Position numbers and translations under genes: made by a program. A stretch of DNA of 44,656 nucleotides from Candidatus Gastranaerophilales bacterium (GTDB taxonomy: Bacteria; Cyanobacteriota; Vampirovibrionia; Gastranaerophilales; Gastranaerophilaceae), in NCBI GenBank assembly GCA_944324425.1, contig CALUWE010000015.1:1-44656 (forward strand), in the 5' to 3' direction. How positions within the stretch are numbered: position 1 is the stretch's first letter; every line of letters begins with the position of its first letter. The notes under the pieces were generated by a model that searched no databases, was not told the origin of the DNA, and saw nothing but the letters and a program-made list of their open reading frames with translations. Below are positions 5,754 through 37,453 of this stretch, piece after piece.

Positions 5754-5755
5754 TT

Positions 5756-6319: not shown

Positions 6320-7039
6320 TTATTCTCCTACAAATGTTCCTATTTCTTCACCTTTTAATATCTTTGTTATACCGTCTTTTAAATCAAAATCAAATACCAC
6401 AATCGGGATATTATTTTGTTTACATAATGAACAGCTTGTTGTATCCATTACTTTTAAACCTTTAACAATAATATCGTCATAGGTGATTTTATCATATTTT
6501 TTAGCATTGGGGTTGGTTTTCGGGTCATCATCATAAATGCCGTCCACCCCGTTTTTTGCCATAAGCATAGCTTCAGCCCCAATTTCAGCCGCTCTTAGTG
6601 CTGCTGCCGTATCTGTTGTAAAGAAGGGGTTTCCTGTGCCTGCCGCAAAAATAACAACTCTGTTTTTTTCTAAGTGTCTGATTGCTTTAAATCTTATGTA
6701 AGGTTCTGCAATTTTGTTCATTGTTATTGCAGATTGAACCCTGCAAGATACACCTATTTTTCTTAATTCCGATTGAAGGGCGATTGCATTCATAACAGTT
6801 GCAAGCATGCCGACATAATCGCCGGAGGCTTGATCCATTCCGAGCTTTTTAGAATTTTTCATTCCTCTGAATATGTTGCCGCCGCCAACAACAACCGCAA
6901 TTTGAACACCCATTTCATGCGCTTTTTTAATTTCAAGAGCGATTTTTTCAACGGGAACAGGGTCAATGCCGAATTCTTGACTGCCCATAAGTGCTTCGCC
7001 GCTGATTTTCAGTAAAATTTTGTTGTACTTTAAATTCAT
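6320..7039 (-). CDS. pyrH: uridylate kinase (UMP kinase)
   Basis: PyrH phosphorylates UMP to UDP; in bacteria it is a hexamer of the amino-acid-kinase fold. Recognisable parts are KISGEALMG at the N-terminus (phosphate binding), VVVGGGNIFRG near residue 49, FAAGTGNPFFTTDTAAALRA near residue 130 and AKNGVDGIYDDDP near residue 161. Its 239 residues are typical. It is the first gene of the minus-strand operon and is transcribed divergently from the 7108 gene. Confidence 0.97.
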   Translation of the reverse strand: MNLKYNKILLKISGEALMGSQEFGIDPVPVEKIALEIKKAHEMGVQIAVVVGGGNIFRGMKNSKKLGMDQASGDYVGMLATVMNAIALQSELRKIGVSCRVQSAITMNKIAEPYIRFKAIRHLEKNRVVIFAAGTGNPFFTTDTAAALRAAEIGAEAMLMAKNGVDGIYDDDPKTNPNAKKYDKITYDDIIVKGLKVMDTTSCSLCKQNNIPIVVFDFDLKDGITKILKGEEIGTFVGE

Positions 7040-7069
7040 CTTTTTATTCTTTGTTAAATATTTATGATA

Positions 7070-7075
7070 ATTATA
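7070..7075 (-). promoter_or_regulatory. -10 box of the pyrH operon
   Basis: TATAAT on the minus strand lies about 30 bases upstream of the pyrH ATG in the short divergent region 7040-7107. I see no convincing -35 for it. It would drive pyrH-frr-cdsA-rnc-rpe, since the later genes have no intergenic space for another promoter. Confidence 0.4.
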
Positions 7076-7094
7076 CTAAAAAATCGTTATTATG

Positions 7095-7100
7095 TATAAT
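7095..7100 (+). promoter_or_regulatory. -10 box seven bases before the 7108 ATG
   Basis: TATAAT, preceded directly by TG, ends seven bases before the ATG at 7108. Transcription would start at or next to the start codon, and no Shine-Dalgarno is present. This is the same leaderless geometry seen before the genes at 51, 1053, 43302 and others. Confidence 0.45.
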
Positions 7101-7107
7101 ATTTATT

Positions 7108-8322
7108 ATGAATTTGGGAAATAAAACCTTAGATAATTTAATATCAAAAGATTTTAATACCGCAAGGTCTGCAGCTTCTTATATAACGGACAATTCAGAC
7201 GTTGAAGCTTTTTTGGCTTTGGTTATGAAATCTGAATTTTTGTTTGATTTTATTAAAGAAAAAATTTTAAAAAACTTAATAGGATCGGTAAACGAAAAAA
7301 ACTATAAAAACCTTTTCAATTTTTTAAAAATTTATTCGGATGACTTTAAAGGTTTTATTCTGACTCCTTTAATTCAATTCAAAACCCCTGAAGTTGAAGA
7401 TAAAATGCAAAAATTTCTTCTTGAAGGCTCCTTAGAAGAAAAAACTTATGCAACGGAATTTTTCACAATTTTAGGTGATAAAACAAAATATGAAATAATT
7501 AAACTTAACCTGAATGCCGATTTTGAACCCTTGAAAATTGCTTCAATAAATTATCTTTCAAATTTAGGCTTTAGGTTTGAATTTGAAGAAAACCTAAAAA
7601 TTTTAGAAGATAATTCAAAAGATAACTTTGAAAAATTAACCTCTGTTGAATTTTTGGCTTATTTTGGCGACAAAAGCGCATTTGAACCGATTTATAACTA
7701 TTTTATAAATGAAGATAATTCTTACACTGTTGCAAATTTTTTACTGGATTTAAAATCATTTTCAACATTAATTGAAGAAAACAAGGAAGATGAAATTTTA
7801 AACATTTTATCCTCTGTTATTTTAAATTTTCCTGACTCCGTCAGCTTTCAGGAAATTAATTATTACCTAAACGAAGGCTTATTTGAATTTTTGCTTGAAT
7901 CTGAAAATAATCTTGCAGCTTTAATTCTTTTTTATTTAAAAAATAAAACAGGGCTTATTTTAGATGATGAAAATTATTCAATTGATTTAACAAAAGAAAA
8001 TAAAAAAGAAGCAAATATCATAAATTCAAAGTTAAATAATGCAATTCAAATTTTTGATAAAATGGAAACCTTAACTTTGGGGTTAGATTCCGTTAATTAT
8101 TTTGAAAATGTTTTATCTTTAGAAATTATAAAAGAAGAAAACCTTGAAATTGTTGAACCCATTTATAATTTATTAGAAAAAACAACAAATAATGAAATTA
8201 TAATGGATATTTTATATTGCCTTCAAAGTCAAAACAAGCTTGATGAAGCCCTTATAAATAAAATTTTATTAAAAACAGAAAACGAGATTTTAAAAGCGCA
8301 AATTAAAAGTTTCCTCAATTAA
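7108..8322 (+). CDS. hypothetical all-helical protein, possible HEAT-like repeats
   Basis: This 404-residue protein has no enzyme motif that I recognise. It is predicted to be almost wholly alpha-helical, acidic and soluble. Recurrent 30-40 residue helix pairs, such as the stretches around LLEGSLEEKTYATEFFTILG and SVEFLAYFGDKSAFEPIYNY, suggest HEAT/armadillo-like repeats used for protein binding. The ATG at 7108 is chosen over an in-frame start at 7051 because the -10 box at 7095 would lie inside the longer form and the extra residues look non-coding. It is divergent from pyrH and is not in an operon. Confidence 0.7.
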   Translation: MNLGNKTLDNLISKDFNTARSAASYITDNSDVEAFLALVMKSEFLFDFIKEKILKNLIGSVNEKNYKNLFNFLKIYSDDFKGFILTPLIQFKTPEVEDKMQKFLLEGSLEEKTYATEFFTILGDKTKYEIIKLNLNADFEPLKIASINYLSNLGFRFEFEENLKILEDNSKDNFEKLTSVEFLAYFGDKSAFEPIYNYFINEDNSYTVANFLLDLKSFSTLIEENKEDEILNILSSVILNFPDSVSFQEINYYLNEGLFEFLLESENNLAALILFYLKNKTGLILDDENYSIDLTKENKKEANIINSKLNNAIQIFDKMETLTLGLDSVNYFENVLSLEIIKEENLEIVEPIYNLLEKTTNNEIIMDILYCLQSQNKLDEALINKILLKTENEILKAQIKSFLN

Positions 8323-8387
8323 ATTTTATACTTATTAAAATTGTATAAAGAACACTTGCAATTTTTGATTTTTGTTCTATCATGTTA

Positions 8388-8405
8388 TTGTGAAAATAAT
8401 CACGA
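8388..8405 (+). promoter_or_regulatory. Rex (NADH-sensing repressor) operator upstream of adhE
   Basis: The 18 bases read TTGTGA-AAATAA-TCACGA. The published Rex consensus is TTGTGAA-N4-TTCACAA, and 12 of its 14 specified positions match here. It lies 38 bases before the adhE ATG, between the likely core promoter and the ribosome binding site, where a bound repressor would block transcription. adhE is a classic Rex target: when NADH rises, Rex releases DNA and ethanol formation regenerates NAD+. The rex gene is not in this window. Confidence 0.65.
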
Positions 8406-8443
8406 ATTAAACCGAAGTTATATAAAAAGGAGAACAACAAATT

Positions 8444-11080
8444 ATGACAACTACTGTAGAAAAAGAACCGGTTGAACTTGTTGAAACCGCCGAACAGTTA
8501 GATGCCCTTGTTGACCGTGTAGTTGCAGCACAACAAGAATTTGCAACATTTACACAAGAACAAGTGGACAAAATCTTCAAAGCAGCTGCAACTGCAGCAG
8601 ACAAGGCTCGTATTCCCCTTGCACAAATGGCAAGAGAAGAATCAGGCATGGGCGTTGTTGAAGATAAAATCATCAAAAACCACTACGCAAGTGAATATAT
8701 TTACAACAAACACAAAAACACAAAAACTTGCGGTGTAATTGAAGAAGACAAAGCAAACGGAATTAAAATCGTGGCTGAACCTTTGGGTGTTTTAGCAGGT
8801 ATTGTTCCTACAACAAACCCAACTTCAACCGCTATTTTTAAATCTTTAATCGCATTGAAAACAAGAAACGGTATCATTTTCTCACCGCACCCGAGAGCTA
8901 AAAAATGTACAATTGCAGCTGCAAAATTAGTTTTAGACGCTGCAGTTAAAGCGGGTGCACCTAAAGACATTATCGGCTGGATTGATGTTCCTTCAATTGA
9001 GCTTTCAGGTCAATTAATGAAACACAAAAAAATCGCTTGCATTTTAGCAACAGGCGGCCCCGGTATGGTTATGGCAGCTTATTCATCAGGCAACCCCGCA
9101 CTTGGTGTTGGTCCCGGTAATACATCAGCCGTTATTGATGAAACAGCAGATATTCAAATGGCAGTTTCATCAATTCTTATGTCAAAAACATTTGATAACG
9201 GTATGATTTGCGCATCAGAACAATCAGTTATAGTAGTTGACAGCATATATGATGAAGTTAAAAAAGAATTTGCAAAAAGAGGCGCTCATATTATGACAGA
9301 AGCCGAAAAGCAAAAATTAATCGATTTTGGCTTTATCGATCCTAACCGCGGAACTGCTCATCCTAAAATCGTTGGTCAACCTGCAGGTGAAATTGCTAAA
9401 ATGGCAGGTTTTGAAGTTCCCGAAACAACAAAAGTTTTAATCGGCGAAAGAGAAACTCTTGATTGGGCTGACCCATTCTCAAGAGAAAAATTATCACCGA
9501 TTTTAGCTATGTATAAAGCAGGTTCATTTGAAGAAGCTGCTGATATGGCTTACTTCCTTGTTTCAAAAGGCGGCGCAGGCCACACATCAGTTTTATATAC
9601 AGATGAACGCAAAAAAGACAGAATTGACGCATATGCTAAGAAAATGCCGACTTGCCGTGTATTAATCAACCAACCTTCAAGCCAAGGCGGTATCGGCGAC
9701 CTTTATAACTTCCGTATGGAACCATCATTAACATTGGGCTGCGGCTCTTGGGGCAAAAACTCCGTTTCAGGAAACGTAGGCGTTGAAAACCTGTTAAACT
9801 ATAAGAGAGTTGCTGAAAGGAGAGAAAATATGCTTTGGTTTAAGGTTCCTCAAAAAGTTTACTTCAAAAGAGGTGCTACGGATTTAGCTTTAAGAGAATT
9901 AAAAGGAAGAAAGAAAGCATTTATCGTAACCGACAGATTCCTCTTTAATTCAGGTGCTGCAAACGGTATCATTAAAGTTTTGGATGAACTTGGCATTGAC
10001 CATGAAATCTTCTTTGATGTTAAACCGGATCCTACATTATCAACAATTGAAGAAGCATACACCATTATGAAACCTTTCGAACCTGATGTAATCATTGCAT
10101 TGGGCGGCGGTTCACCTATGGATGCTGCTAAAATCCTTTGGTTAAAATATGAACAACCTGATACAGTTTTTGAAGATATCGCAATGAGATTTATGGATAT
10201 CAGAAAAAGAATTTGCGAACTTCCTGAACTCGGCAAAAAAGCTCTTATGGTTGCAATTCCGACAACATCAGGTACAGGTTCTGAAGTAACACCGTTCTCA
10301 ATTATTACAGATGATAAAACAGGCGTTAAATATGCAATTGCAGACTATGCCTTAACACCTTCAATGGCAATTGTTGACCCGAATTTTGTTGACGGTATGC
10401 CAAAAGGCTTAACATCAGCTTCAGGTATCGACGCTTTAGTTCACGCTATTGAAGCTTATGTATCTTGCATGGCTACAAACTTCACCAATTCAAACGCTCT
10501 TGAAGCAGTGAAACTTGTATTCAAATATTTAAGCCGTTCATACCACGAAGGTGCTAATGATCCTCTTGCAAGAGAAAAAATGCACTATGCAGCAACAATT
10601 GCAGCTATGGCATTTGCGAACTCATTCTTAGGCTTATGCCACTCAATGGCACACAAATTGGGCGCAATGTTCCACGTTCCGCACGGTGTTGCTAACGCAT
10701 TATTAATCAGACAAGTAATCAGATTCAACGCAACAGACTGCCCGAAAAAACAAGCTACATTCCCGCAATACAAATATCCTTGCGCTATCGAAAGATATGC
10801 TCAAATTGCGGATGAATTAAAATTGGGCGGTTCATCCAACGAAGAAAAAACCGAACTTTTACTTAAAGCTATCGATGAATTGATGACAGATATCGAACTT
10901 CCGAAATCAATCAAAGAATGGTTAGAAAAGAACGGCAAAACAGAAGAAGACTTCTACGCTAAATTAGATGAAATGGTTGAACTTGCATTTGACGACCAAT
11001 GCACGGGCGCAAACCCTGTATATCCTTTAATGAGCGATATTAGAGCATTGTATATTAAAGCTTTCAACGGTGAATACTAA
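8444..11080 (+). CDS. adhE: bifunctional acetaldehyde-CoA / alcohol dehydrogenase
   Basis: AdhE reduces acetyl-CoA to acetaldehyde and then to ethanol, reoxidising two NADH; it forms spirosomes in the cytoplasm. Residues 1 to about 445 are the CoA-acylating aldehyde dehydrogenase with catalytic Cys256 in DNGMICASEQ. Residues from about 460 form the iron-dependent alcohol dehydrogenase with GGGSPMDAAK and the metal ligands in HAIEAY, GLCHSMAHKLG and MFHVPHG. At 878 residues it is full length for the fusion. A strong AAAAGGAG site precedes the ATG. The gene is monocistronic, with a Rex operator upstream and a strong terminator 22 bases after the stop. Codon use is richer in C-ending codons than in the neighbouring genes, as expected for a highly expressed protein. 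Confidence 0.98.
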   Translation: MTTTVEKEPVELVETAEQLDALVDRVVAAQQEFATFTQEQVDKIFKAAATAADKARIPLAQMAREESGMGVVEDKIIKNHYASEYIYNKHKNTKTCGVIEEDKANGIKIVAEPLGVLAGIVPTTNPTSTAIFKSLIALKTRNGIIFSPHPRAKKCTIAAAKLVLDAAVKAGAPKDIIGWIDVPSIELSGQLMKHKKIACILATGGPGMVMAAYSSGNPALGVGPGNTSAVIDETADIQMAVSSILMSKTFDNGMICASEQSVIVVDSIYDEVKKEFAKRGAHIMTEAEKQKLIDFGFIDPNRGTAHPKIVGQPAGEIAKMAGFEVPETTKVLIGERETLDWADPFSREKLSPILAMYKAGSFEEAADMAYFLVSKGGAGHTSVLYTDERKKDRIDAYAKKMPTCRVLINQPSSQGGIGDLYNFRMEPSLTLGCGSWGKNSVSGNVGVENLLNYKRVAERRENMLWFKVPQKVYFKRGATDLALRELKGRKKAFIVTDRFLFNSGAANGIIKVLDELGIDHEIFFDVKPDPTLSTIEEAYTIMKPFEPDVIIALGGGSPMDAAKILWLKYEQPDTVFEDIAMRFMDIRKRICELPELGKKALMVAIPTTSGTGSEVTPFSIITDDKTGVKYAIADYALTPSMAIVDPNFVDGMPKGLTSASGIDALVHAIEAYVSCMATNFTNSNALEAVKLVFKYLSRSYHEGANDPLAREKMHYAATIAAMAFANSFLGLCHSMAHKLGAMFHVPHGVANALLIRQVIRFNATDCPKKQATFPQYKYPCAIERYAQIADELKLGGSSNEEKTELLLKAIDELMTDIELPKSIKEWLEKNGKTEEDFYAKLDEMVELAFDDQCTGANPVYPLMSDIRALYIKAFNGEY

Positions 11081-11101
11081 TTGAATTCTTAATGCAAATC
11101 A

Positions 11102-11134
11102 AAAGCCCTAAAGAAATTCTTTAGGGCTTTTTTA
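11102..11134 (+). terminator. rho-independent terminator of adhE
   Basis: A 12-bp perfect stem (AAAGCCCTAAAG with CTTTAGGGCTTT) with a five-base loop is followed by a T run. It starts 22 bases after the adhE stop. Confidence 0.9.
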
Positions 11135-11141
11135 TAAATTA

Positions 11142-11173
11142 AAAAAGGCGAAAGTAAAAAACTCCGCCTTTTT
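11142..11173 (-). terminator. terminator of metK, bidirectional
   Basis: AAAAAGGCG at 11142-11150 pairs with CGCCTTTTT at 11165-11173 around a 14-base loop. Read on the minus strand it lies just after the metK stop and ends in a T run. It can also back up the adhE terminator on the plus strand. Confidence 0.75.
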
Positions 11174-11189
11174 ATATTTATTTTTTTAT

Positions 11190-12458
11190 TTAAACTGCAG
11201 CAAATTGTTTAGCAGCTTCCCTTAATTTATCTGCCATTTGAACTTCTTCCCAAGGAACATAGAAATCAGATCTTCCCATATGGCCGTATGCTGCCAATTT
11301 TTGGTAGAATTTACCGTTAAATTTTGAAGGAAGTTCACGGAGTTCAAATTGTTTGATAATGGCAGCAGGTCTTAAGTCAAAGTTAGCTTTAACAATTTTT
11401 GCCAATTCTTCATCGTCAATTTTACCTGTGCCAAATGTATCAACAAGTACAGAAACGGGTTCTGCTAAGCCAATAGCGTATGCAAGTTCAATTTCACATT
11501 GTTTTGCAAGACCTGCTGCAACAATATTTTTTGCAACCCATCTTGCAGCGTATGCTGCGGATCTGTCAACTTTCGTCGGGTCTTTGCCTGAAAATGCACC
11601 GCCGCCGTGGCGAGCATAGCCGCCATAAGTATCAACAATAATTTTTCTGCCTGTTAAGCCTGCATCACCTTGAGGGCCGCCAATTACAAACCTGCCTGAA
11701 GGGTTGATATAATATTTTGTGGTTGAATCGGGTTTAATTTTTTCATCTTTAAACACTTCTTCAACAACATATTTCATCATATCTTCTTTAATAATGGCTT
11801 GAATTTTTTGGTTGTCAGATTCACCGTTTATTTCGGGGTCATGTTGAGTTGAAATAACGATTGTATCTATTCTTTTGGGTTCGCCGTTTTCATATTCAAC
11901 GGTTACTTGGGTTTTGCCGTCCGGTCTTAAATAGTTAACAAGCCTTTCTTTTCTAACTTCAGCTAATCTGTAAGCTAACCTGTGGGCAAGTGAAATTGGA
12001 AGGGGCATAAATTCTTTTGTTTCATCACAAGCATAACCAAACATAATGCCTTGATCGCCAGCGCCTATATTTACGGTTTCAGTTGCAGAAGTTGAACTTA
12101 CATCGTTTCTTGTTTCAAGCGCTTTATTAACACCGCCTGCAATGTCTGTTGATTGTTCATCAATGCTTGTTAAAACAGCGCAGGTTTTATAATCAAAACC
12201 GCCGCCTTCTTCACCTTTGTAGCCTATTCTTTTAATTGTTTCTCTTACAACGGACGGGATATCAACATAACAAGATGAAGAAATTTCGCCTGAAACTAAA
12301 ACCATTCCTGTTGTTGCGGTTGTTTCGGCTGCAACACGGCTTGTGGGGTCTTTTGTTAAAAATACATCCAAAATTGCATCTGAAATTTGGTCGCAAACTT
12401 TATCAGGATGGCCTTCAGTTACAGATTCCGATGTAAATAAAAAATTTTTAAGTGCCAT
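11190..12458 (-). CDS. metK: S-adenosylmethionine synthetase
   Basis: MetK makes S-adenosylmethionine from methionine and ATP. Signatures are [20 protein letters not shown] at the N-terminus, [15 protein letters not shown] near residue 131 and [19 protein letters not shown] near residue 287. At 422 residues it is somewhat longer than the E. coli enzyme, which is within the range of the family. The start has an excellent AAGGAGAG ribosome binding site. It is transcribed alone from the region shared with aspS and has a leader of about 90 bases containing a hairpin. Confidence 0.97.
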
Positions 12459-27480: not shown

Positions 27481-27959
27481 TTTTTTATCCTTTTTATAAT
27501 TTCTTCTCTAAAGCAAAAGAAAATATAAATAAAAACAGAAAAAGTAATCAAAATATCAAATAAATTAAAAACGGGAAAATTAACAAACGTAAGTTTTATA
27601 AAATCTGTTACATACCCGTCAGTTAACCTTTGAACGGTGTTGCCCAAAATTCCTGCGGTAAAAATTGCAGAGCATAAAATTTTTGTTTTATCAATAAAAG
27701 CAACATATTTAAAAACATAAATTAAGCATAATAAAATAACAACAACCCCTAAAAGCCCCAATATAAGAGAGCTGTCTTGAAACATTCCAAATGCTGCCCC
27801 TTTATTTTGAGTTTCCGTTATTAAAAAGAATGTCATGTCGTCATTTTTTTTAAAAAAGTGTTCGTTCATAAAAATTTTGGACAAACTAATCATTAATTGC
27901 CAAATGACAAGAGTTAAAAGAATATAAATTGTAAAAGCTTTTTTATCCTTTATTTTCAT
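27471..27959 (-). CDS. lspA: lipoprotein signal peptidase
   Basis: LspA is the membrane aspartyl protease that removes signal peptides from prolipoproteins. It has four membrane helices and conserved NKGAAFGMF. The catalytic pair is present: Asp in GYVTDFI and Asp in FNLFD, 18 residues apart as in E. coli. One family position differs: the usual GNLxDR motif reads GNTVQR, so a conserved non-catalytic Asp is replaced. Length is 162 residues. It overlaps rluD and the preceding exported-protein gene, so it is co-transcribed with both. Confidence 0.92.
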   Translation of the reverse strand: MKIKDKKAFTIYILLTLVIWQLMISLSKIFMNEHFFKKNDDMTFFLITETQNKGAAFGMFQDSSLILGLLGVVVILLCLIYVFKYVAFIDKTKILCSAIFTAGILGNTVQRLTDGYVTDFIKLTFVNFPVFNLFDILITFSVFIYIFFCFREEIIKRIKNCK

Positions 27960-28818
27960 TATTTGATTTTTCCATATTCATTCTCTGAACATAAAAGCCC
28001 ATGCCGGAAATTACCGCTCTGTATTTTTTTGCTTTTTTATCTTTTGTGTCAACGGTTTTTATAAAAGCATATGTGGCATTTGCATATTCATTTATATTTT
28101 TATCGTTTGCAATCATCACTCTTTCTAAAATTCCGGTTGAATCAATTGCTCTGTATGGGTCCCAATATTTTTCCGTCGGATAAACTATTTTATCATGGCC
28201 TATTGAGCCGACTGCAACCCTGTTTTCCGGAACAACAAGAGTGGTTTTAACGGTAAATTCTTCATTCGGCTTCAGGGTTTTTGGAGCTTCCATTTTAAAA
28301 TCAGCTTCCATTGCTTCACCGTATCTTATATCGGTTGCTTCTTCATAAATTTCATCCGCAACTACCATCCAATTATCATTTTCTTTTTTATATGTCATTG
28401 AATAATCAGCCACGCTTACCATTTTGCCTTTTATTTTGCCTTTTTCCGTATAGGCGGCGTCATCCCCTTTTACTAAAATTTTCGTGGTTGAAATTTCATC
28501 GATATAAATTTTAATTAAATCATCTTTTATATCCACTTTTTTAATGGTTTCTTTTGTTTTTGAGCTTGGGTAAAGTTTTCTTGCCGTTTCAAAAATTTCC
28601 AATATTTGGTCTTTATTATAGCCGTCAGCGCTTTTATAATTATCCGAATAATATTTCGAAATTCCTTCAATATCATTTTTGTCGGATAGTTTTCTTAATT
28701 TTTCGGTTATTTTAATAACCTCTTTTACGTCTTTTTCGGTAACATCGGCAAATGCGGCGCTATAACAAGCAAAATTGATAATCAACGCCGAAATTAAAAG
28801 AAAAGTGAATTTTTTCAT
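27943..28818 (-). CDS. exported protein with NTF2/SnoaL-like N-terminal region
   Basis: The 291-residue protein begins with a Sec signal peptide (about residues 1-24, probable cleavage after AFA). Residues 25-160 have the pattern of an NTF2-like fold: an amphipathic helix with KITEKLRKLSDKNDIEGISK, then strands ending in YSMTYKKENDNWMVVADEIYEE. The C-terminal half is beta-rich and of unknown type. It may act in the periplasm, but no catalytic residues can be named. It overlaps lspA by 17 bases. A Cys in the signal peptide does not fit a lipobox, so a soluble product is more likely than a lipoprotein. Confidence 0.7.
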   Translation of the reverse strand: MKKFTFLLISALIINFACYSAAFADVTEKDVKEVIKITEKLRKLSDKNDIEGISKYYSDNYKSADGYNKDQILEIFETARKLYPSSKTKETIKKVDIKDDLIKIYIDEISTTKILVKGDDAAYTEKGKIKGKMVSVADYSMTYKKENDNWMVVADEIYEEATDIRYGEAMEADFKMEAPKTLKPNEEFTVKTTLVVPENRVAVGSIGHDKIVYPTEKYWDPYRAIDSTGILERVMIANDKNINEYANATYAFIKTVDTKDKKAKKYRAVISGMGFYVQRMNMEKSNNENKG

Positions 28819-28826
28819 AAGACTTC

Positions 28827-29408
28827 CTATTTATCTTGTTTAAAAATCATAAAGTATTTGTTTGTTCCATAATACAATATAATTTGCCAAAATTCACCAT
28901 TTATATCGTTTATTTCCATATAAGTTTTAGGAATAGGTTTTCTTTGTGTTTTTTCGGGAAACATGGTACCCACAAAATCCGCCACTTTTGTTTTAAACCT
29001 TTTCCACTTTGTGGTTTTGGGTTTTGGAATATATTCATCGTAAAATTCTTCAGTTGTAAGGTCAACATTATAACAAGGCACCATATATTTAACACGGCCG
29101 TTTTCTTTAAACAAAACATATGTTCTGCCGTCTTTTTTTCTTGGCGTTAAAAGGTAAAACCCTGGCGGTATAACCGTTTCTTTAAAAATAAAATTAACGC
29201 CCGTTCTCATTAAAGGATACGGGGAAAACATATATTGCTTATATTCTTCCGCCTGATAAGGGTCAATTCCGAAAATATACTCAAAATTAGCGGGCTCTAA
29301 TTCATCATAAATTTTTTGAAAATCTTCTTCGGCATTTACCGGCTGAAAAACAGTAAACAATAAAACAATACAAACCGAAATTAAAAATTTTAAAATATCT
29401 ATTTTCAT
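28827..29408 (-). CDS. exported hypothetical protein
   Basis: The ATG at 29408 gives 193 residues with a clear signal peptide (MKIDILKFL, hydrophobic core, cleavage near VNAEE). Longer in-frame starts would place charged residues before the signal peptide and overlap the cheW gene. The mature part carries a basic stretch (KTTKWKRFKTKVADF) and short beta-rich segments such as GEFWQIILYYGTNKYF. I recognise no domain. It precedes the NTF2-like exported gene by eight bases, and the two likely act in the same compartment. Confidence 0.65.
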   Translation of the reverse strand: MKIDILKFLISVCIVLLFTVFQPVNAEEDFQKIYDELEPANFEYIFGIDPYQAEEYKQYMFSPYPLMRTGVNFIFKETVIPPGFYLLTPRKKDGRTYVLFKENGRVKYMVPCYNVDLTTEEFYDEYIPKPKTTKWKRFKTKVADFVGTMFPEKTQRKPIPKTYMEINDINGEFWQIILYYGTNKYFMIFKQDK

Positions 29409-29439
29409 ATTGTTCTTATTAATAATTTTTTTTATTAAA

Positions 29440-30447
29440 TCAACTGACATAAAGTTTTTCATCCCCGAACAATTTTTTAATATCAAGGAACAAATATATT
29501 GAATTATTTATAACACATTCATTCAGACAGCTTGTAATTGAGTCTTGTTTATAATTCACAAGATTTTCCGCTATATCGATTGTTTCGCCTATGGCGTCCG
29601 CTATTATGCCTATTTCATAGTCTTCGTATTCAACAACAATGATGCTTGTTTCTTTTGTAATTTCAACATTTCTGTTTTCTGTATATTTTAAAAGGTCAAT
29701 AACGGTTATATATCTGCCTTTTATACTGACTATACCCACAATAAAATCGGGCGTGCAGGGAACTTTTGTCAATTTAACATTTAAAAATTTATAAAAACCC
29801 GCCACATGAAGAATTTTTATACAACAGGTATTATTATCCAAAATAAAAGTAATGTATGTGTCTTGGCTTTTTATAATTTCGTTTGTTACTTCTTTTGTTT
29901 TTCTTGCATAATGAAGTCTTCTTCTGTGCAAAGTTTCTTTTGATGCAGTATCTTTTGGCAAAAATGTTGCCGCGCTGTTTTTACTGTCGCCCGTAAAACT
30001 GTATGGCGAATTAATTTTTCTTTCAATATTTTCAAGGTTTAAAATGGTAACGGAAAATTCCTTGTCCGTATAAATAGCTTCCAAATAAGATTTTTCGGTA
30101 TCATACGGGGGAATGTTCATAGACAGAGTATTTATACGGCGAATTTCTTTAACATCATCAATAATAATTCCGAATACATCATTTTTAGTTTTTACGATGA
30201 TAATTTTTGAATTCAAATTATAGGGGGCTGCCTCTAATTTTAAGATATTTCTTATATCAATAATTTTTATGATTTGGTTGTTATATTCCAAAAGCCCCGT
30301 TATAAAATCAGGCATGGATTCAGGGTATTCCAATTCCACAAGCTGCATAATATCAAGAACATACTTTGCACTAAATGCATAGTTAAATGTTCCTATTGAA
30401 AAAAATATATAACTTTCTTCTTTATAATCAACGATGGCGTTATTCAT
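29440..30447 (-). CDS. tandem CheW-domain coupling protein
   Basis: CheW proteins connect chemoreceptors to the CheA kinase. This 335-residue protein carries two CheW folds: residues about 10-140 (YIFFSIGTFNYAFSAKYVLD, then FITGLLEYNNQIIKIIDIRN) and about 195-330 (TYITFILDNNTCCIKILHVA, then FIVGIVSIKGRYITVIDLLK). The two are joined by a basic linker. Double-CheW proteins occur as CheV-like or array-structuring variants; here no receiver domain is attached. It overlaps the REC-GGDEF gene by eight bases and is probably translated with it. Confidence 0.88.
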   Translation of the reverse strand: MNNAIVDYKEESYIFFSIGTFNYAFSAKYVLDIMQLVELEYPESMPDFITGLLEYNNQIIKIIDIRNILKLEAAPYNLNSKIIIVKTKNDVFGIIIDDVKEIRRINTLSMNIPPYDTEKSYLEAIYTDKEFSVTILNLENIERKINSPYSFTGDSKNSAATFLPKDTASKETLHRRRLHYARKTKEVTNEIIKSQDTYITFILDNNTCCIKILHVAGFYKFLNVKLTKVPCTPDFIVGIVSIKGRYITVIDLLKYTENRNVEITKETSIIVVEYEDYEIGIIADAIGETIDIAENLVNYKQDSITSCLNECVINNSIYLFLDIKKLFGDEKLYVS

Positions 30448-31882
30448 TGTGTTCCATTACCACTTTGTTTTTGCCGCTTTTCTTGGCTTTATACAATGCG
30501 GCATCAGCTTTTTCAATAAGTTCGTTTGAATCTCTCATTTCTTTGCCGTAGGTTGAAGCACCAATAGAAACGGTTACATTCATTTTTTTGCCTTCAAAAA
30601 TAAAGTCTCTGTTTTCAATTGTTTTTCTTAATCTTTCTAAAGGGATATAAGCCTTATCAATCAAAGTTTCAGGCATTAAAATACAAATTTCTTCACCGCC
30701 GTATCTGTATACAAAATCAGTTTTTCTTAAAGTGTTTATAAATATTTTTGAAACTTCTTTCAAAACGTAATCGCCTGCCATATGGCCGTATTTATCGTTT
30801 ACCATTTTAAAATCGTCAATGTCTATCATGGCAACCGTTACAATTGTACCGTATCTTTTTGCCCTTTCAAATTCCTGTGCAAGAACCGATTTTAAATGAC
30901 GCCTTGTATATAATTGGGTTAGTTCGTCGGTTATTGAAAGGTAACAGGTTTTTGTGTAAAGATATTTAAGCCTTAGGAATAAATCCAATTCGGATTTTAC
31001 GGTTTGCATAAACCTCATTTTATTCCAGCGGATATTTTCTCTTGAATAAAAACATAATTTTCCTATTAAAATGTCATCATAATAGAAATCAAATTCTTTC
31101 TTCGACAAAAGATCGTCAATTGAATCAATTGATGTTTTTTCATTATCGTTTTCAATTTTTTCGGGCTTGAAATCGTTTATGCTGTCGGGCAGCAATTGGC
31201 GCCAAAGCTCAAGCATTAATTCATCCGTTAATGAAACATTTTCTTCGTCAAAAATAATTCTTTTTTGAACCGAATTATCGGGCGAATGGAAATAAATGCA
31301 GGCAACGTCATAATCCGTTATTGCGGATAAAATATCAAAAATTTGCCTTGCTAAAAATTTATCATCTTTCGTATAATCCGTTATGGTTCTGAACTTATTT
31401 GTTATGGTTGTTTTCATAAGTTCATCATCCAAAATTTTATTAATTTGAGTTATTATGGCATCTTCTTCAATTTCAAAAGTGGAAAGCTCCATTTTAACGG
31501 CATTTGAAACAGGCATTTTTTCGACAATTTCACCTGCAGCCTGAACAATTGTCGCCATATCAAAATCTTTTCTTAAAAATACATCCGCACCGGATTGGCT
31601 TGCCCAAAATTTATCAAGATTTTTGTCCAAGACAGTCAGCATAATAAACGGAATATCGTGAGTTTCTTTGTTGCTTTTTAAAAGTCTGCACAACTGAAAA
31701 CCGCCTAAGTGCGGCATTAAAACATCGGAAATTATAACATCGGGTGTGTTTTGATAAACTTTAACATACCCTTCAACACCGTTTTTAGCGGTTTCTACTT
31801 CCCAGCCTTCTCTTTTGAAAAAGATTTTCAAGCTTGTTAATTGTGTAACGGAATCATCTATAATTAATACTTTTTTTGCCAT
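30440..31882 (-). CDS. response regulator diguanylate cyclase (REC-GGDEF)
   Basis: The 480-residue protein has an N-terminal receiver domain with phospho-acceptor Asp53 in DVIISDVLMP and acidic residues at 9-10. A central region of about 170 residues is a possible GAF-like sensor. The C-terminal GGDEF domain has active site GGEE at 395-398 and the product-inhibition motif RKTD at 386-389. This predicts phosphorylation-dependent synthesis of cyclic-di-GMP with feedback inhibition. Layout and context recall WspR, although WspR lacks the middle region. It is divergent from the MCP-CheA operon and probably the output of that kinase. Confidence 0.9.
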   Translation of the reverse strand: MAKKVLIIDDSVTQLTSLKIFFKREGWEVETAKNGVEGYVKVYQNTPDVIISDVLMPHLGGFQLCRLLKSNKETHDIPFIMLTVLDKNLDKFWASQSGADVFLRKDFDMATIVQAAGEIVEKMPVSNAVKMELSTFEIEEDAIITQINKILDDELMKTTITNKFRTITDYTKDDKFLARQIFDILSAITDYDVACIYFHSPDNSVQKRIIFDEENVSLTDELMLELWRQLLPDSINDFKPEKIENDNEKTSIDSIDDLLSKKEFDFYYDDILIGKLCFYSRENIRWNKMRFMQTVKSELDLFLRLKYLYTKTCYLSITDELTQLYTRRHLKSVLAQEFERAKRYGTIVTVAMIDIDDFKMVNDKYGHMAGDYVLKEVSKIFINTLRKTDFVYRYGGEEICILMPETLIDKAYIPLERLRKTIENRDFIFEGKKMNVTVSIGASTYGKEMRDSNELIEKADAALYKAKKSGKNKVVMEHNE

Positions 31883-31947
31883 AAGTTGAGATATTTAATA
31901 TAATATACTTAGAATTATTATACATTATTTTTAAAAAAGGTGAAATC

Positions 31948-33000
31948 ATGTTAAAAGAGTACAAAAAGACAACCATAAACAAGCTTATAAACACCCAGCA
32001 GCTAATTGACACCCTCATTATTGCGCTCGGCATTTTGTTTGCGTGGGTTTTCGGCAGATATTCGGGAGAACTTGAACTTTTGGCAATTTTGGCGTTTGCG
32101 CTTGTGTTATTGGTGCTTTTACACTATGCCTTCTACATTAACAAAAGATGGTATAAAAGGGAATTAGACAGACTGATTTTTGATTCGATAGAACAAACGG
32201 ATGAAGAAACAAAAAATATTGAGGGTTTATCCAAAGAACAAAAAGAAGCCTTTAAAGATTCCTTTGATACTCTTAAAGATACATCTGAGGTTTTGTCTTC
32301 TTTAATTAAAGAATTGGGCTCGATGGATTGCATGATAAGCCAAACAAGAGATAAAACGGTAAACACTTTAGAACGTACAAATGAAGAACATTTAGCGGTT
32401 AAAGCAAACATTGAAAAAATGTTTGTCATAAGACACAAAATGCAGACAATTGCTGAATTAATTCTTGAATTATCGGAATTTATTCAATCTATAAGTTCAA
32501 CAATCGGCACGGTTGAAGATATAGCGGAACAAACAAACCTTCTTGCGCTGAATGCCGCAGTTGAAGCTGCAAGAGCAGGAGAACACGGCAAAGGGTTTGC
32601 GGTTGTTGCGGGTGAGATTAGAAAACTTGCGGATGAATCAAAACAAGCAACAACCAAAATTACATCTTTAATTACTGATATTCAGCAAACAACAAATTCA
32701 ACCGTTATTGCAACCGAAGAAGGTACAAAAGAAATTGAATCCGGTATAGATTTAGCTCACAATATAGGCTCAAACGTTGAAAGCTTAATCAATATAATAA
32801 ACGAAATTTCAACGGGCGTAGCCGAAATTGATAATATTTCAAAAACAATCAATAAAGGCACAAATGAAACGGACAGCTACATCAAAGGTTTAAACTCAAC
32901 CCTTGAAAATGCGAACAAAACTCTCGAAACAACCACAAAAAAACTTGATAATATTAATCAAATAAGCAAGGGCTTTAAAAATACCGTTGTCGGAGAATAA
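31948..33000 (+). CDS. methyl-accepting chemotaxis-type receptor, short form
   Basis: The 350-residue protein has two adjacent membrane helices (about residues 18-38 and 45-70) with almost no periplasmic loop, so it should sense something in or near the membrane. A HAMP domain is not evident. The cytoplasmic rod includes the highly conserved hairpin tip [20 protein letters not shown] with [15 protein letters not shown], which binds CheW and CheA. It lacks the C-terminal CheR-docking pentapeptide. A GGTG-containing site precedes the ATG. CheA follows 20 bases later. Confidence 0.9.
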
Positions 33001-33020
33001 AAAGGCAAAAATTAAATAAA

Positions 33021-36000
33021 ATGGAATTTCTTCAGGAAGAATTAGATGAAATATTAAATATTTTTGCTCAAGAAGGGGCTGAAATTCTCCAATCAATGGA
33101 CAAAAACCTTCTTTTGCTGGAAAAAAAGCCCAATGACATTGATGTTGCCATGCACTTGTTCAGAGATGCCCACAGCTTAAAGGGTTCTGCAAGAATGCTC
33201 GGGTTTAACGGCATTCAAAACATTGCGCATAAAATAGAAGATGTTTTGGGGTTAATCAGAGAAGGAAAACTTCAGGTTAACTCAAATATAACGGATACAA
33301 TTTCAGACGCACTGTCTTGTATAGACAAGCTGATTAAAAAAACCGTTGAGCAAAAGTCGGAATTTGTAAACGAAGAATCCGACATTCATATAAAAAAGCT
33401 TACCAATATATGCGAAAACCTCGATAAACAAAATGAAAATACGGAACAGATAAATAAAGAGGTTAAAAAAGAAGAAAATTTTTTTAAAATAAACTTTGAA
33501 AAATTTGAAGACCTTATCACAAGCATTATTTTCATTTATACAAAATGCGTTCAATATAACGATTTTGAGCAATTGCAAGACATAATTACATTAAGCGGCG
33601 AGCTTTCAAAATTATGCGAAGATGTTCAAATTGAAAAACTTTACGAAATTTCCAACACAATTTCCGATCTTACAGCCGAAAGTATAAGGGAAGGCAACAC
33701 AAACGGCGAAATTTTATATGAATTAAATGCTAAAATTAACGAATTTATTCAAATATTCGGCAAAATTGCGGCAGAAAACGGCTTGAGCACAAAAAATTAT
33801 TATGAAAGTGCATATAAAATTTCAACCGATAACAAACTGACAAATGAAGAAGAACTGAAGCACTCTCAAGACCAATTAAAAAACGCCGAATTGCTGGAAT
33901 TAATAAATAAAACGGCGGAAACCATTCCCGATATAAATAAAAACAGGCATTCTTTGGCCGAAGCAAAAAGCCTTTTAAATGAAATTGTTTCAAGGCTTCA
34001 AAATGACGATTTTAAAAAGATTTATCAAACAATTTTGGCCATTATTTTAAATTTTGAAAAAAGCAACGTAAAGCTTGAATCCGACGGCATTGAAGCCTTA
34101 AAAGAAATCTTGGAATCAACCGCAGGGATAGTTGAAGCAAGGTCATCCAAAAATGTTTATAACGATTTTATAGAAGAAGTTGAGCTTTTAAACCAAAAGG
34201 CGGTTATTATTGCTCAAATGATTAAATACGAGCTTGAAAACCCCGCCAAAATGCAAAGAACCCAAAAAACAATAAAGCCTGTCGACTGGGCGCAAAGCTT
34301 TGATACAACAGCCATTAAGACGTTGAGGGTTAATTCCGACAAATTGGATAAACTGGTCAGCCAAATCGGCAACCTTATTGTTACAAGAATTAAATCCCAT
34401 GAACATGTGGGAATGGTTAAATATATTCAGGATGAACTTATTGAATGGCAAAAACATTACCATAAAATAGGTTATTACATGAAGTTTTATGAAAAAAAAT
34501 ATATTCAGGACGCATTAACCGGAAATCAGGATTTATCGCAAAAAAAAGATTCATTTTTAGGATACAACAAACAGTTAATTGCTTTTCATAATGCAAACAC
34601 CGAAAAAATGAACTATATTCTAACCAATTTGAATATTTTAATTAAAGAGTTGCAGGAAAATAACATAAAATTAAATACCGCAACTTCTGAAATTGAAAAT
34701 ATGGTTAAATCAATGCGTATTTTGCCCTTGTCCACAGTTTTTAATTTGTTCCCGAGAATGGTTCACAACATCGCAAAAGACAAAGGCAAAGAAATTGAGC
34801 TTACAATAGACGGTGCGGAAACAAGCGCAGATAAAAAAATTATTGAAGATATTAAAATTCCCATTATGCACATTGTAAGAAACTCTATTGACCATGGAAT
34901 TGAACTTCCAAGGGACAGAGAGCGTTTGGGCAAACCCAAAACCGGAAATATCATTATAAAAGCGCTTCAAAAAGAAAATAAAATCGTAATCAGCATAAAA
35001 GACGACGGCAGAGGCATAAACATTGAAAAAATTAAACAAAAGGCTGTCGAAAAAGGTTTTGCCACTTTAGAAGCCGCTGAAAATATGTCTAAAGAACAAT
35101 TGGCAAACTTTATATTCTACCCCGGATTTTCAACGGGAGATTCTGTAACAGAACTTTCAGGAAGGGGCTTGGGGCTTGATATAGTTCATACAAAAATTTC
35201 TCAACTGAACGGCAGAATTGATGTATATAGTGAAGAAAACAAGGGCACGGTTGTTACAATGGAACTGCCGACAACAATGGCAACCATGAAGGCCTTTATT
35301 ATTATGGAAAACAACCAGCTCTTTGCAGTACCCGCAGGCAGCATTCAAACGGTTTTAAGAATCGGAAGCGATGAAATTAAAAACAGAGATAACAAATTTT
35401 ATTTCATTTACAACAACGAAGCAATTCCGATTTGCAGTTTATCTTCAATTTTGGGCAACAAGGAAGATGAAAACAAAAAAGATGATAAACACACTATTAT
35501 GGTTTTAAAATCGGAAAGCATTACAACAGGCATTATCATTCAAAAACTCGTGGGAGACGAAGAAATTCTTCATAAAAAACTGCCTGAACCTATGCTTAGA
35601 GTCAAAAACATTTCAGGCATTACAACCCTTGCAAACGGTGAAATGTGCCTTTTGTTAAACGTTGGCGATATTCTGAATTCAAATTCAATCAATCCGAGAG
35701 ATTTTGTTTCAACAAAATCTCTAACGCTGCAAGACAATTCAAAATATAAAATTCTTGTGGTGGATGATTCCATTACAACAAGAAGATTATTGAACAATGT
35801 GCTTGTTTCCAACGGTTACAGCGCAGATTTGGAATCAAGCGCAAAGAGCGCATTAAGAACGCTTGATAATACTCAATATGACCTTATTATTTCGGATTAT
35901 GAAATGCCGGATATGAGCGGTTTGGAATTTGTTCAAATTTTAAGGAACAGAGAAAAAACCAAAAATATTCCCGTTATTGTATTTACTTCCATTGAAAAAC

Positions 36001-36131
36001 CGGGGCTTAAAGAAGCATTTATGAAGGAAGGCATTGAAGAGTTTATGAAAAAAGAATATTTTGAACAAAATGCTTTCTTGAAAACAATTAATAAATACCT
36101 GAAATTTTCAATTGAACAAAAAGGCGAATAA
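33021..36131 (+). CDS. hybrid chemotaxis histidine kinase CheA-REC
   Basis: The 1036-residue kinase runs in this order. An HPt domain at residues 1-110 carries phospho-His51 in AHSLKGSARML. A long helical region at about 115-420 has no obvious second phospho-His. Then come the dimerisation helices (LRVNSDKLDKLVSQIGNLIV), an ATPase with N-box HIVRNSIDHGIEL and G-boxes DDGRGIN and GRGLGLDIVHTKI, a CheW-like domain, and a C-terminal receiver with Asp959 in IISDYEMPDMSG. A fused receiver is typical of Pil-Chp and Wsp-type CheA. It can act as a phosphate sink or relay toward the REC-GGDEF protein. Confidence 0.93.
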   Translation: MEFLQEELDEILNIFAQEGAEILQSMDKNLLLLEKKPNDIDVAMHLFRDAHSLKGSARMLGFNGIQNIAHKIEDVLGLIREGKLQVNSNITDTISDALSCIDKLIKKTVEQKSEFVNEESDIHIKKLTNICENLDKQNENTEQINKEVKKEENFFKINFEKFEDLITSIIFIYTKCVQYNDFEQLQDIITLSGELSKLCEDVQIEKLYEISNTISDLTAESIREGNTNGEILYELNAKINEFIQIFGKIAAENGLSTKNYYESAYKISTDNKLTNEEELKHSQDQLKNAELLELINKTAETIPDINKNRHSLAEAKSLLNEIVSRLQNDDFKKIYQTILAIILNFEKSNVKLESDGIEALKEILESTAGIVEARSSKNVYNDFIEEVELLNQKAVIIAQMIKYELENPAKMQRTQKTIKPVDWAQSFDTTAIKTLRVNSDKLDKLVSQIGNLIVTRIKSHEHVGMVKYIQDELIEWQKHYHKIGYYMKFYEKKYIQDALTGNQDLSQKKDSFLGYNKQLIAFHNANTEKMNYILTNLNILIKELQENNIKLNTATSEIENMVKSMRILPLSTVFNLFPRMVHNIAKDKGKEIELTIDGAETSADKKIIEDIKIPIMHIVRNSIDHGIELPRDRERLGKPKTGNIIIKALQKENKIVISIKDDGRGINIEKIKQKAVEKGFATLEAAENMSKEQLANFIFYPGFSTGDSVTELSGRGLGLDIVHTKISQLNGRIDVYSEENKGTVVTMELPTTMATMKAFIIMENNQLFAVPAGSIQTVLRIGSDEIKNRDNKFYFIYNNEAIPICSLSSILGNKEDENKKDDKHTIMVLKSESITTGIIIQKLVGDEEILHKKLPEPMLRVKNISGITTLANGEMCLLLNVGDILNSNSINPRDFVSTKSLTLQDNSKYKILVVDDSITTRRLLNNVLVSNGYSADLESSAKSALRTLDNTQYDLIISDYEMPDMSGLEFVQILRNREKTKNIPVIVFTSIEKPGLKEAFMKEGIEEFMKKEYFEQNAFLKTINKYLKFSIEQKGE

Positions 36132-36132
36132 A

Positions 36133-36735
36133 TTGAATACCGAGGAAATTTTAAAGCAATATTCAAAAGATGTTGAACACAGCGAAAATGTTCAAAAATA
36201 TTCTTTGATGTTGTTTGAAAAATTGAAAAATGTTTTTCCCGACATTCAAAAATATGATAACGAAATTGACCTTGAATTTTTAAAAAAGGGGGCAAGCCTG
36301 CATGATATAGGTGTTTATTTTGAAAAAATATACAATAAAGAACACAATAAAGCAGGTGCTAAATTTATTTTGGAAAATAAACCGGATGACATTCAAGAAA
36401 AAGATTTAATTTTTTTGTGCTGCCTTATAAGATACCACAGAAAAAGCCTTCCGAACCCCAAAAAACACAAACTTTATTCAAAATTAAACGACGAAGACAA
36501 AATAAAATTGAATTGTTTGGGCTCAATCATAAAACTTGCAGACGGTTTGGATTACGGACATTTGGGGCTTATTTCCGATTTGAATTTTGAATATAACAAA
36601 AAACTTAATGTTTTGACTTTGTTTTTATCGGGCAATATAATGTTAAATGCTTCGGTTTTAAAAGCCATAAGCAAGAAAAAAGATTTTTTTGAATTTGCCT
36701 ATCAAACAAAATTAAAGATTAAGGGGAGTCTTTAA
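36133..36735 (+). CDS. stand-alone HD-domain protein, Ppx/GppA C-terminal type
   Basis: The protein resembles the HD half of Ppx/GppA phosphatases without the actin-like phosphatase half. It shows EHSENVQKYSLMLFEKL, then LHDIGVYFEKIYNKEHNKAG with the HD metal pair, then LIRYHRKSLPNPKKH and IIKLADGLDYGH. Such domains bind divalent metal and hydrolyse phosphate bonds, here perhaps of a nucleotide. TTG at 36133 is preferred as start because AAAAAGGCG lies just before it and it follows the cheA stop by one base; this gives 200 residues. Its position inside a chemosensory operon is unusual. Confidence 0.78.
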   Translation: MNTEEILKQYSKDVEHSENVQKYSLMLFEKLKNVFPDIQKYDNEIDLEFLKKGASLHDIGVYFEKIYNKEHNKAGAKFILENKPDDIQEKDLIFLCCLIRYHRKSLPNPKKHKLYSKLNDEDKIKLNCLGSIIKLADGLDYGHLGLISDLNFEYNKKLNVLTLFLSGNIMLNASVLKAISKKKDFFEFAYQTKLKIKGSL

Positions 36736-36736
36736 A

Positions 36737-37453
36737 TTGAATAAAAAGTTTTTGATTTTTTGTTTAATTTTGCTGTCATTGCCTTCATTTGCAGATGATG
36801 TTATGAAGGGCGGAGTTACATACGATTACAACACTTCCATTAGAGCAAATGAAATTGAAAGCAAGCTTCCCGTTATTGAAAAAGATTTTGTTGACCTCAA
36901 TTATTCAATAGAGTTTAAGCCTTTAAATTTGTTGTCTGAAGATGAAATGGTAATCAAAAAACTGCCCAGCTTCCCTTCAATTAAAGGCGGCTCGAGGTAT
37001 ATACCCGACAATTATGAGGTTTCTTTGTCAACGGGGCGGGCAAAAGGCAATTATGATTCAAGTAAAAACATTGAATTTATGTTGAGACAAAACCCCAATA
37101 ACAATGAGCTTCTATACGCTTATGCAATTCAGCTGAAAAATGAAAAACAATTGGAAAAAGCCCTTTTTATCGTAAATAAAGCGCTTGAAAATAACCCCGA
37201 TTTTGCATTGGCACACTTTTTAAAAGGGGATATTTTGAGAAACATGGAAAAATATAAAGAAGCTGTGGATGAGTATCTTTATACAACTCAAATTAACCCA
37301 TACTGCGCAGATGCTTATTATAACATAGCAAAAATTTTAGAGCTTTTGGATGACAGAGAGCTTGCGCTTGACTATTATAAAACGGCATACCAAGTTAACC
37401 CGAATGATACCGAAATAAGGGATATTATTTTAGAACATTACATTGAATTATAA
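36737..37453 (+). CDS. exported TPR-repeat protein
   Basis: The 238-residue protein starts at TTG, with GGGGAG eight bases upstream, and has a signal peptide (residues 1-19, cleavage after SFA). After a linker of about 90 residues come three tetratricopeptide repeats from about residue 120 (NELLYAYAIQLKNEKQLEKA, then DFALAHFLKGDILRNMEKYK, then CADAYYNIAKILELLDDREL). TPRs are protein-binding scaffolds, here in the periplasm or on the outer membrane. It starts one base after the HD gene. Its end overlaps the convergent WYL gene by 16 bases. Confidence 0.82.
   Translation: MNKKFLIFCLILLSLPSFADDVMKGGVTYDYNTSIRANEIESKLPVIEKDFVDLNYSIEFKPLNLLSEDEMVIKKLPSFPSIKGGSRYIPDNYEVSLSTGRAKGNYDSSKNIEFMLRQNPNNNELLYAYAIQLKNEKQLEKALFIVNKALENNPDFALAHFLKGDILRNMEKYKEAVDEYLYTTQINPYCADAYYNIAKILELLDDRELALDYYKTAYQVNPNDTEIRDIILEHYIEL

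Follow-up and report, generated by a model that had tools for sequence, protein, structure and literature searches.

A chemosensory module without CheR or CheB in a Gastranaerophilales genome, with a probable cyclic-di-GMP output

The window analysed here is a 44,656-nucleotide stretch of a Candidatus Gastranaerophilales bacterium, gut-associated and related to cyanobacteria (assembly GCA_944324425.1, contig CALUWE010000015.1, positions 1 to 44,656), and its interval 29440-37453 carries two gene sets that diverge from a 65-base gap and encode a methyl-accepting chemotaxis protein (MCP), a double CheW adaptor, a CheA kinase with a C-terminal receiver domain (CheA-REC) and a receiver-GGDEF protein (REC-GGDEF). 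We propose that this module is probably a self-contained, non-adapting chemosensory switch of the alternative cellular function (ACF), Wsp-like, type, which in this organism would raise cyclic-di-GMP (c-di-GMP). An initial annotation of the DNA had described the open reading frames and strands as we find them, and Pfam domains and the map of open reading frames agree with its grouping of the four genes as two divergent sets. Its observation that CheR, CheB, flagellar and pilus genes are missing from the module also holds, with zero Pfam matches to these families among the interval genes.

Conservation of the module across the family

In a family sample of 78 genomes spread over 41 genera, one and the same set of 40 genomes has MCP matches over the cut-off, CheW and the module CheA, which argues that the module is not a chance assembly; six more genomes with MCP matches below the cut-off were left out of this count. 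Comparison of synteny among relatives showed that the core arrangement, a leftward CheW-CheW gene followed by rightward MCP and CheA genes, is kept in 40/40 loci, as far as contig ends allow (in our handles for genomes, the contig end removes the CheW gene in G060 and truncates it to 286 amino acids in G023, and the kinases of G004, G011, G019, G055 and G067 are cut). The expectation that the two divergent operons occur together was therefore borne out for the double CheW, present in 39/40 module genomes, but not for the cyclase gene, which is missing from 16/40 and degenerate in 3/40.

The window genome has one MCP match and three CheW domain matches, all of them inside the module, and it therefore has no CheV (CheW-REC) elsewhere. 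The locus is a self-contained chemosensory unit. Named relatives with the module mostly bear the Gastranaerophilales name. Among 146 genomes sampled across the class, the sole genome of family f1 listed with a match at E<=1e-60 was the window's own, and prevalence depends on sampling.

Absence of adaptation enzymes from the module and of canonical methylation motifs from its receptors

In profile match counts, CheB had 0 matches in the window genome and was matched in 4/78 genomes of the family. Three CheR-domain proteins are encoded elsewhere in the window genome (best 100 bits), all matching the S-adenosylmethionine (SAM) domain only. With genuine cheR set aside, such orphan CheR-domain proteins occur in 54/78 genomes (matches at E<=0.001, a few under the curated cut-off), but they are found in 22/40 genomes with the module as against 32/38 without it (Fisher p=0.007), the opposite of co-conservation, and a co-conserved CheR was rejected as a candidate. 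Genuine CheR (194-198 bits) was found in 3/78 genomes, each time beside CheB and a second CheA. In three of the four CheB genomes, CheB stands with genuine CheR, CheW, MCP and the second CheA; one of these clusters was Pfam-checked (G032, in the order CheY-CheX-CheX-CheA-CheW-MCP-CheR-CheB). The fourth genome, G023, has CheB and no CheR match. These second chemotaxis clusters with CheR and CheB lie in loci L078 (G032), L079 (G004) and L080 (G011), and the tree places their CheA well away from that of the module. Among the orphan CheR-domain proteins, an F.G-like motif occurs in the N-terminal stretch of L001 and L002, and L003 likewise carries the CheR SAM domain. G024 has a weak CheR match (24.5 bits, below the cut-off) about 10 kb from the module.

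By hydropathy, the receptor has two hydrophobic helices with a gap of about 7 residues; neither a periplasmic nor a HAMP domain was found in it, in line with the claim that it lacks a sizeable periplasmic domain. Among the 40 module receptors, 36 have a pair of hydrophobic helices joined by a loop of 2-13 residues; a single helix passes the threshold in L055 and L071, L072 has three helices and a longer first gap, and the L033 sequence is cut. The window receptor ends in ...NTVVGE, which, judged by the docking consensus, we take not to be a CheR-docking pentapeptide, and the missing docking tail that had been proposed is thus upheld on that consensus. Identity in the signalling tip averages 78% over 39 receptors (L033 was left out of the per-column identity), and other segments range from 0.20 to 0.44.

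We then counted methylation-type motifs, defined by the classical methylation consensus. Nine canonical MCPs of relatives (from G004, G011, G023 and G032) hold 31 motifs, every one at an offset of -84, -78, -71 or +84 from the tip, these four offsets having been read off the same MCPs and then counted; shuffling their legs gave 6.2 +/- 2.5 motifs, with 0/300 shuffles as high as 31. The nine are those caught by the tip pattern; G032:C2:451367 (76.9 bits) and the fragment G023:C59 escaped it. The L086 and L087 sequences are truncated. By contrast, the 40 module MCPs hold 18 motifs in total, where shuffled legs gave 13.0 +/- 4.0 (39/300 shuffles as high as 18); 1 of the 18 lies at one of the four canonical offsets, and none was found in the window receptor. 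Because the legs of the module receptors are long enough to hold the sites, this is not truncation, and by the motif counts the module receptors have lost the canonical-type methylation motifs. Without a CheB match, a co-conserved CheR-domain protein or receptor motifs, the proposed lack of methylation-based adaptation is supported.

In the kinase, His51 is present in 41/41 CheA rows (39 module rows together with L075 and L076), and Asp959 of the C-terminal receiver in 34 of the 37 rows having that column. The H-kinase_dim model of Pfam gave no CheA match at E<=0.001; this agrees with an excerpt of PMC10542144, where the dimerization regions of some CheAs are described as elongated. L075 (G054) and L076 (G018) encode a short CheA-like kinase of 706-711 amino acids with Hpt- and REC-like parts; both genomes are without MCP or CheW matches over the cut-off, and the branch of the two kinases is very long in the CheA tree.

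In a midpoint-rooted tree with outgroup rows of our choosing, the 19 sampled module CheAs form one clade (100/100) that sits beside 33 CheA-REC rows (98/93), apart from 15 other rows. We take the 33 to be of the ACF/type IV pilus (Tfp) type. CheR and/or CheB was found in the fetched stretch of 31/33 sister systems (the exceptions are L119 and L116) and of 0/50 rows on the module side, the 50 including L075, L076, several short contig-cut loci and the duplicates L097, L098 and L100 (contigs of G036, G042 and G025), which were dropped from the CheA tree. The CheR, CheB, MCP, GGDEF, CheW, CheA and CheY models for the outgroup stretches were built by us from few sequences (CheR 3, CheB 4), and the outgroup CheR and CheB counts are lower bounds. 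This difference between sister systems and module rows suggests that the branch leading to the module probably lost adaptation, together with a sensor domain and separate CheWs. Within the same class, 25 genomes of family f2 gave a match; the 16 f2 clusters that were read carry CheR in 16/16 and CheB in 15/16, with the run CheR, CheW, MCP, CheA-REC kept in 6/16. Descent of the module from the f2 clusters was rejected, one clade being excluded by the approximately unbiased (AU) test (p-AU 2.8e-7).

Cyclase output, proposed mechanism and competing explanations

The window cyclase has an intact GGEEI signature, an RxxD inhibitory site (I-site) and the receiver residues Asp53, Thr83 and Lys105. 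Among its orthologues, Asp53 is kept in 22/23 (Glu in L063) and both signature glycines in 20/23. The predicted structure (predicted local distance difference test, pLDDT, 86.9; predicted template modelling score, pTM, 0.55) matches PleD and then the WspR structures 3bre and 3i5a. Its middle domain is tentatively GAF-like, a label taken from alignment to phytochrome- and GAF-type cyclases, VIA-align having listed no separate GAF family. Judging from these residues, the module most likely makes c-di-GMP in the window species. The initial annotation had proposed that the circuit turns a signal into c-di-GMP, and this stands for the window but does not extend to the clade: the cyclase is active-looking in 20 of the 40 module genomes (counting L068, whose GGEEM was accepted by eye and excluded by the script pattern), degenerate in 3, absent from 16 and contig-cut in 1 (G060), and c-di-GMP is therefore not the clade-wide output.

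Where present (23/39 readable loci), the cyclase gene occupies the same slot across the tree. Its presence and absence require 6 changes on the CheA tree, with at least 5 changes of the absent label forced by well supported branches. Because L103 and L104, which branch first in the module clade of the outgroup tree, both have an active-looking cyclase, the simplest reading is that the cyclase was probably ancestral to the module and was repeatedly lost. Relocation of the gene was rejected, no receiver-to-cyclase match being found in the 16 cyclase-less genomes among the matches listed (>= ~94 bits). Five stand-alone receivers (L178-L182) were also rejected as candidates: four share a conserved locus that is apart from the module, and L181 stands in another. 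The degenerate copies keep the receiver Asp and Lys. In the REC-GGDEF orthologues of L041, L042, L044, L096 and L099 the receiver phospho-acceptor is kept and the GGDEF signature lost; these proteins are possibly receiver-only scaffolds. PilZ was matched in 77/78 genomes (one match in the window genome, where the initial annotation had pointed to a search) and GGDEF in 78/78 (7 in the window genome), and c-di-GMP signalling is therefore family background; PilZ, GGDEF and T2SSE, the last in 78/78 genomes with or without the module, were uninformative as discriminators.

We propose that the membrane-hairpin receptor, devoid of a periplasmic sensor domain, would form arrays with the double CheW and CheA-REC, and that a membrane or intracellular cue may alter CheA activity. 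Phosphate would pass from CheA His51 to the receiver of the divergently encoded REC-GAF-GGDEF protein, which, once phosphorylated, would make c-di-GMP for a presumed downstream target, limited by its own I-site. The receiver on CheA would most likely drain phosphate and so reset the signal, acting as a sink. As there is no CheB, no linked CheR and no methylation-type motif, the output would track the absolute level of the cue and not its change.

Several observations weigh against this model. The cyclase is absent or degenerate in 19/40 module genomes, and the core therefore works without it there. The flagellar association described below and the nearby flagellar genes in some relatives point to another role in those lineages. 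Structures are predictions from 16-21 sequences, with a pTM of just 0.55 for REC-GGDEF. The window genome does encode three CheR-domain proteins, although on their sequences action on this receptor is unlikely, and the genome-wide search for adaptation enzymes covered CheR and CheB, not CheD, CheC or CheX. The assembly is 97.88% complete, so that an unassembled cheB is conceivable, but the relatives agree on its absence.

A different reading, in which the module is the flagellar steering system of the family and is leftover or re-wired to c-di-GMP in this non-flagellated genus, would have a precedent in Helicobacter pylori, which, in excerpts of the respective papers, is without CheR and CheB (PMC11237671) and has a CheA with a C-terminal receiver (PMC10542144). 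FliG_C was matched in 28/40 module genomes vs 3/38 others (Fisher p=1e-8) and in 17/23 genera with the module vs 1/18 without (p=1.6e-5), both associations being counted without correction for phylogeny. In G036 and G066, an operon with a rod protein, FliF, FliG and a FliI-type ATPase lies next to an S1 gene a few kb from the module (L177, L176); a Bac_export_1 (FliR-type) gene abuts the CheW gene in G069, and an MptE-like gene, of what we take to be a motility-associated family, does so in G066 and G057. Yet 12/40 module genomes, including the window genome, have no FliG match, the constant core holds neither a flagellar gene nor CheY, and the other neighbours scanned (a choice of neighbours, not all) mostly have housekeeping roles (for example RuvB, glutamine synthetase, tRNA synthetase, EF-P and L9). 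The CheA, moreover, groups with CheA-REC rows of the ACF/Tfp type and not with flagellar-type rows, by our type names. We thus consider flagellar steering a rather unlikely account of the module, though a flagellar role, as an ancestral or a parallel function, is conceivable. The absence of a flagellar link implied by the initial annotation holds for the window module and genome, but not for the family, across which the module associates with flagella.

The cyclase could instead be peripheral, the conserved output running through an unlinked response regulator or the neighbouring HD hydrolase, with c-di-GMP as a local branch. Besides the 19 genomes in which the cyclase is absent or degenerate, with no full-length copy elsewhere in the 16 among the matches listed, this idea draws on an HD gene that follows cheA in 16/40 genomes, including 7 without the cyclase, on other HD-type proteins (HD_5 or HD) that adjoin the module in L054 and L072, and on a 441-amino-acid protein with a weak, below-cut-off receiver match after cheA in the cyclase-less G021. 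The same-slot position of the cyclase in 23/39 readable loci, its occurrence in the first-branching L103 and L104, its probable ancestry and the narrower spread of the HD gene make this unlikely in our view. Far less probable still is adaptation that exists but is unlinked, with the CheR-domain proteins encoded elsewhere methylating the receptor. The window genome does hold three of them, one scoring 100 bits; however, they match the SAM domain only, such proteins are commoner where the module is missing, genuine CheR occurs in just 3/78 genomes, the receptor offers no methylation-type motif, and a CheB that could reverse the mark was not found. We accordingly favour the non-adapting, c-di-GMP-raising switch for the window species.

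The remaining genes of the locus lie around this core. The cyclase gene comes first in the leftward set, and the start of the CheW gene overlaps it by 8 bases. The rightward order is receptor, CheA-REC, HD protein and tetratricopeptide repeat (TPR) protein, the last two having been left unnamed in the initial annotation. The HD protein (207 amino acids) shares invariant H23, H64-D65, H109 and D144 among 16 orthologues, the window's included. Its model (pLDDT 91.7) gave exopolyphosphatase/GppA fold matches, confined to the domain III-like HD part of Ppx/GppA, phosphatase domains I-II finding no counterpart; any part for it in the pathway is a guess. Other HD-type neighbours lie in L054 (5304-6215 and 13086-13655) and L072 (12870-13643), in genomes without the window-type HD gene, as is G021, whose weak-receiver protein is L046 13120-14445. 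Relatives of the TPR protein occur at the same place only in genera g1, g37 and g36. Two proteins at window 27943-29486 have no Pfam or NCBIfam match, and their relatives adjoin the module in the window's genus and in genera g37, g36 and g22.

Table 1. Features of the chemosensory module in window coordinates.
Feature	Position	Strand	Basis
Double CheW adaptor, 335 aa (amino acids), two CheW domains in one chain	29440..30447	-	Pfam CheW, 2 stretches
Putative REC-GAF-like-GGDEF diguanylate cyclase, 480 aa	30440..31882	-	Pfam Response_reg and GGDEF; GGEEI, RxxD I-site
Cyclase GGDEF domain, GGEEI at residues 395-399	30464..30934	-	Pfam, residues 317-473
Cyclase REC domain, predicted phospho-acceptor Asp53	31538..31870	-	Pfam, residues 5-115
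Divergent intergenic region, 65 bases, promoter-like sites on both strands	31883..31947	.	Consensus matches only, not evidence of function
Chemoreceptor (MCP), 350 aa	31948..33000	+	Pfam MCPsignal; hydropathy; motif control
Receptor residues 115-135, place of three N-terminal-leg motifs (offsets -84, -78, -71 from the tip) in relatives' canonical MCPs, none here	32290..32352	+	
Receptor signalling tip, residues 156-250	32413..32697	+	Average pairwise identity 0.78 (39 MCPs)
CheA-REC kinase: Hpt (His51), long P3 region, HATPase, CheW domain, C-terminal REC (Asp959)	33021..36131	+	Pfam Hpt, HATPase_c, CheW and Response_reg; residue counts; trees
Stand-alone HD-domain protein, overlaps cheA stop	36112..36735	+	Pfam
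TPR protein, last gene of rightward set	36737..37453	+	Pfam; gene maps

Relation to known systems and meaning for the family

With a membrane MCP, two CheW units, a CheA-REC kinase and a REC-GGDEF output whose best structure matches include WspR, the module resembles the Wsp system, and the proposed Wsp-like circuit is a fair analogy in gene content. It is not a Wsp member, however: WspC (CheR) and WspF (CheB), part of the core in the 794 systems analysed in PMC8552884 (excerpt), have no counterpart in this locus or in those of relatives, and the CheA stands in its own clade. Further differences are a receptor devoid of a sensor domain and of methylation-type motifs, fused CheWs, a GAF-like domain in the cyclase, frequent loss of the cyclase and a divergent gene layout. 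A precedent for exchanging the output of a Wsp-type core is WspH (the H-system, for example in Burkholderia cenocepacia; PMC8552884, excerpt), where a histidine kinase replaces the cyclase; in the module loci with a lost or degenerate cyclase, by contrast, nothing was identified that takes its place.

The ACF/Tfp-type CheA-REC clusters (for example f2, L214-L229), which run CheW, CheR of about 500 amino acids, CheW, MCP, CheA-REC, CheB and response regulator, hold some of the nearest CheA relatives and the same kinds of component, from which the module differs by lacking the adaptation pair that f2 keeps and by its separate CheA clade. Assignment to the ACF class is tentative and follows the place of the CheA in the tree, beside rows that we take for ACF/Tfp type; the predicted window output is REC-GGDEF and the genome has no FliG match, yet there is the family-wide flagellar link. 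Methanoculleus (L119), Methanospirillum (L152) and Blastocatellia (L115) also combine CheW-CheW with MCP and CheA-REC, with fused CheWs and, in the fetched stretch only, no CheR or CheB, but their receptors are large (746-810 amino acids) and their CheA is distant. The window protein falls among diguanylate cyclases by its GG[DE]EF-type signature and intact receiver.

Chemotaxis in H. pylori is likewise built on a CheA with a C-terminal receiver and no CheR or CheB (PMC10542144, PMC11237671, excerpts), and a sink role has been reported there for the CheA receiver (PMC10542144, excerpt). H. pylori, however, relies on CheV proteins, has flagella and is without c-di-GMP (PMC11237671, excerpt), whereas the window genome has no CheW domain outside the module and no FliG match, and the predicted output is a cyclase. 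As for flagellar chemotaxis proper, no flagellum is indicated in the window's genus, FliG_C giving 0 matches in its three genomes (G000, G026 and G061). The linked pil genes of the Pil-Chp type IV pilus system are absent from the window module by Pfam, and a PilT-type ATPase abuts the CheW gene in one relative, G055. The TadA-type class of pilus ATPase was found in 13/78 genomes; each of these carries the module and has the cyclase gene at its usual position, two of the copies being degenerate. Locus L088 (G000:C2:115500-134500) holds at 5194-12148 a Tad/Flp-type pilus cluster with a SAF-domain CpaB-like protein, a secretin, a REC-ParA TadZ-like protein, a TadA-type ATPase, and a T2SSF protein with a similar neighbour, the Tad gene names being our own labels. 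Taken together, the sequences place the module as a probable variant of ACF/Wsp-type signalling that would be Wsp-like in operation.

For gut Melainabacteria, a few genomes are said in an excerpt of PMC3787301 to lack chemotaxis genes, and a termite Melainabacteria genome is said in an excerpt of PMC5877343 to have them; searches on Melainabacteria or Gastranaerophilales chemotaxis and on Vampirovibrionia chemosensory systems found, among the titles and abstract starts listed, none dealing with this module. To this literature we add a chemosensory core in 40/78 genomes drawn across 41 genera. A broader proposal, which we offer tentatively and hold to be somewhat doubtful, is that the whole clade turned its chemosensory array into a non-adapting sensor of absolute levels, keeping tip, CheW and CheA while CheR, CheB, methylation sites and sensor domain went, with a dispensable cyclase lost repeatedly (5-6 changes on the CheA tree) and with outputs that may differ by lineage, flagellar steering in some and c-di-GMP-dependent attachment in others. 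In this one clade the enzymes and the receptor motifs have both disappeared, whereas both persist in sister systems and in the second systems that a few of its genomes carry; this offers a natural comparison of an adapting with a non-adapting array.

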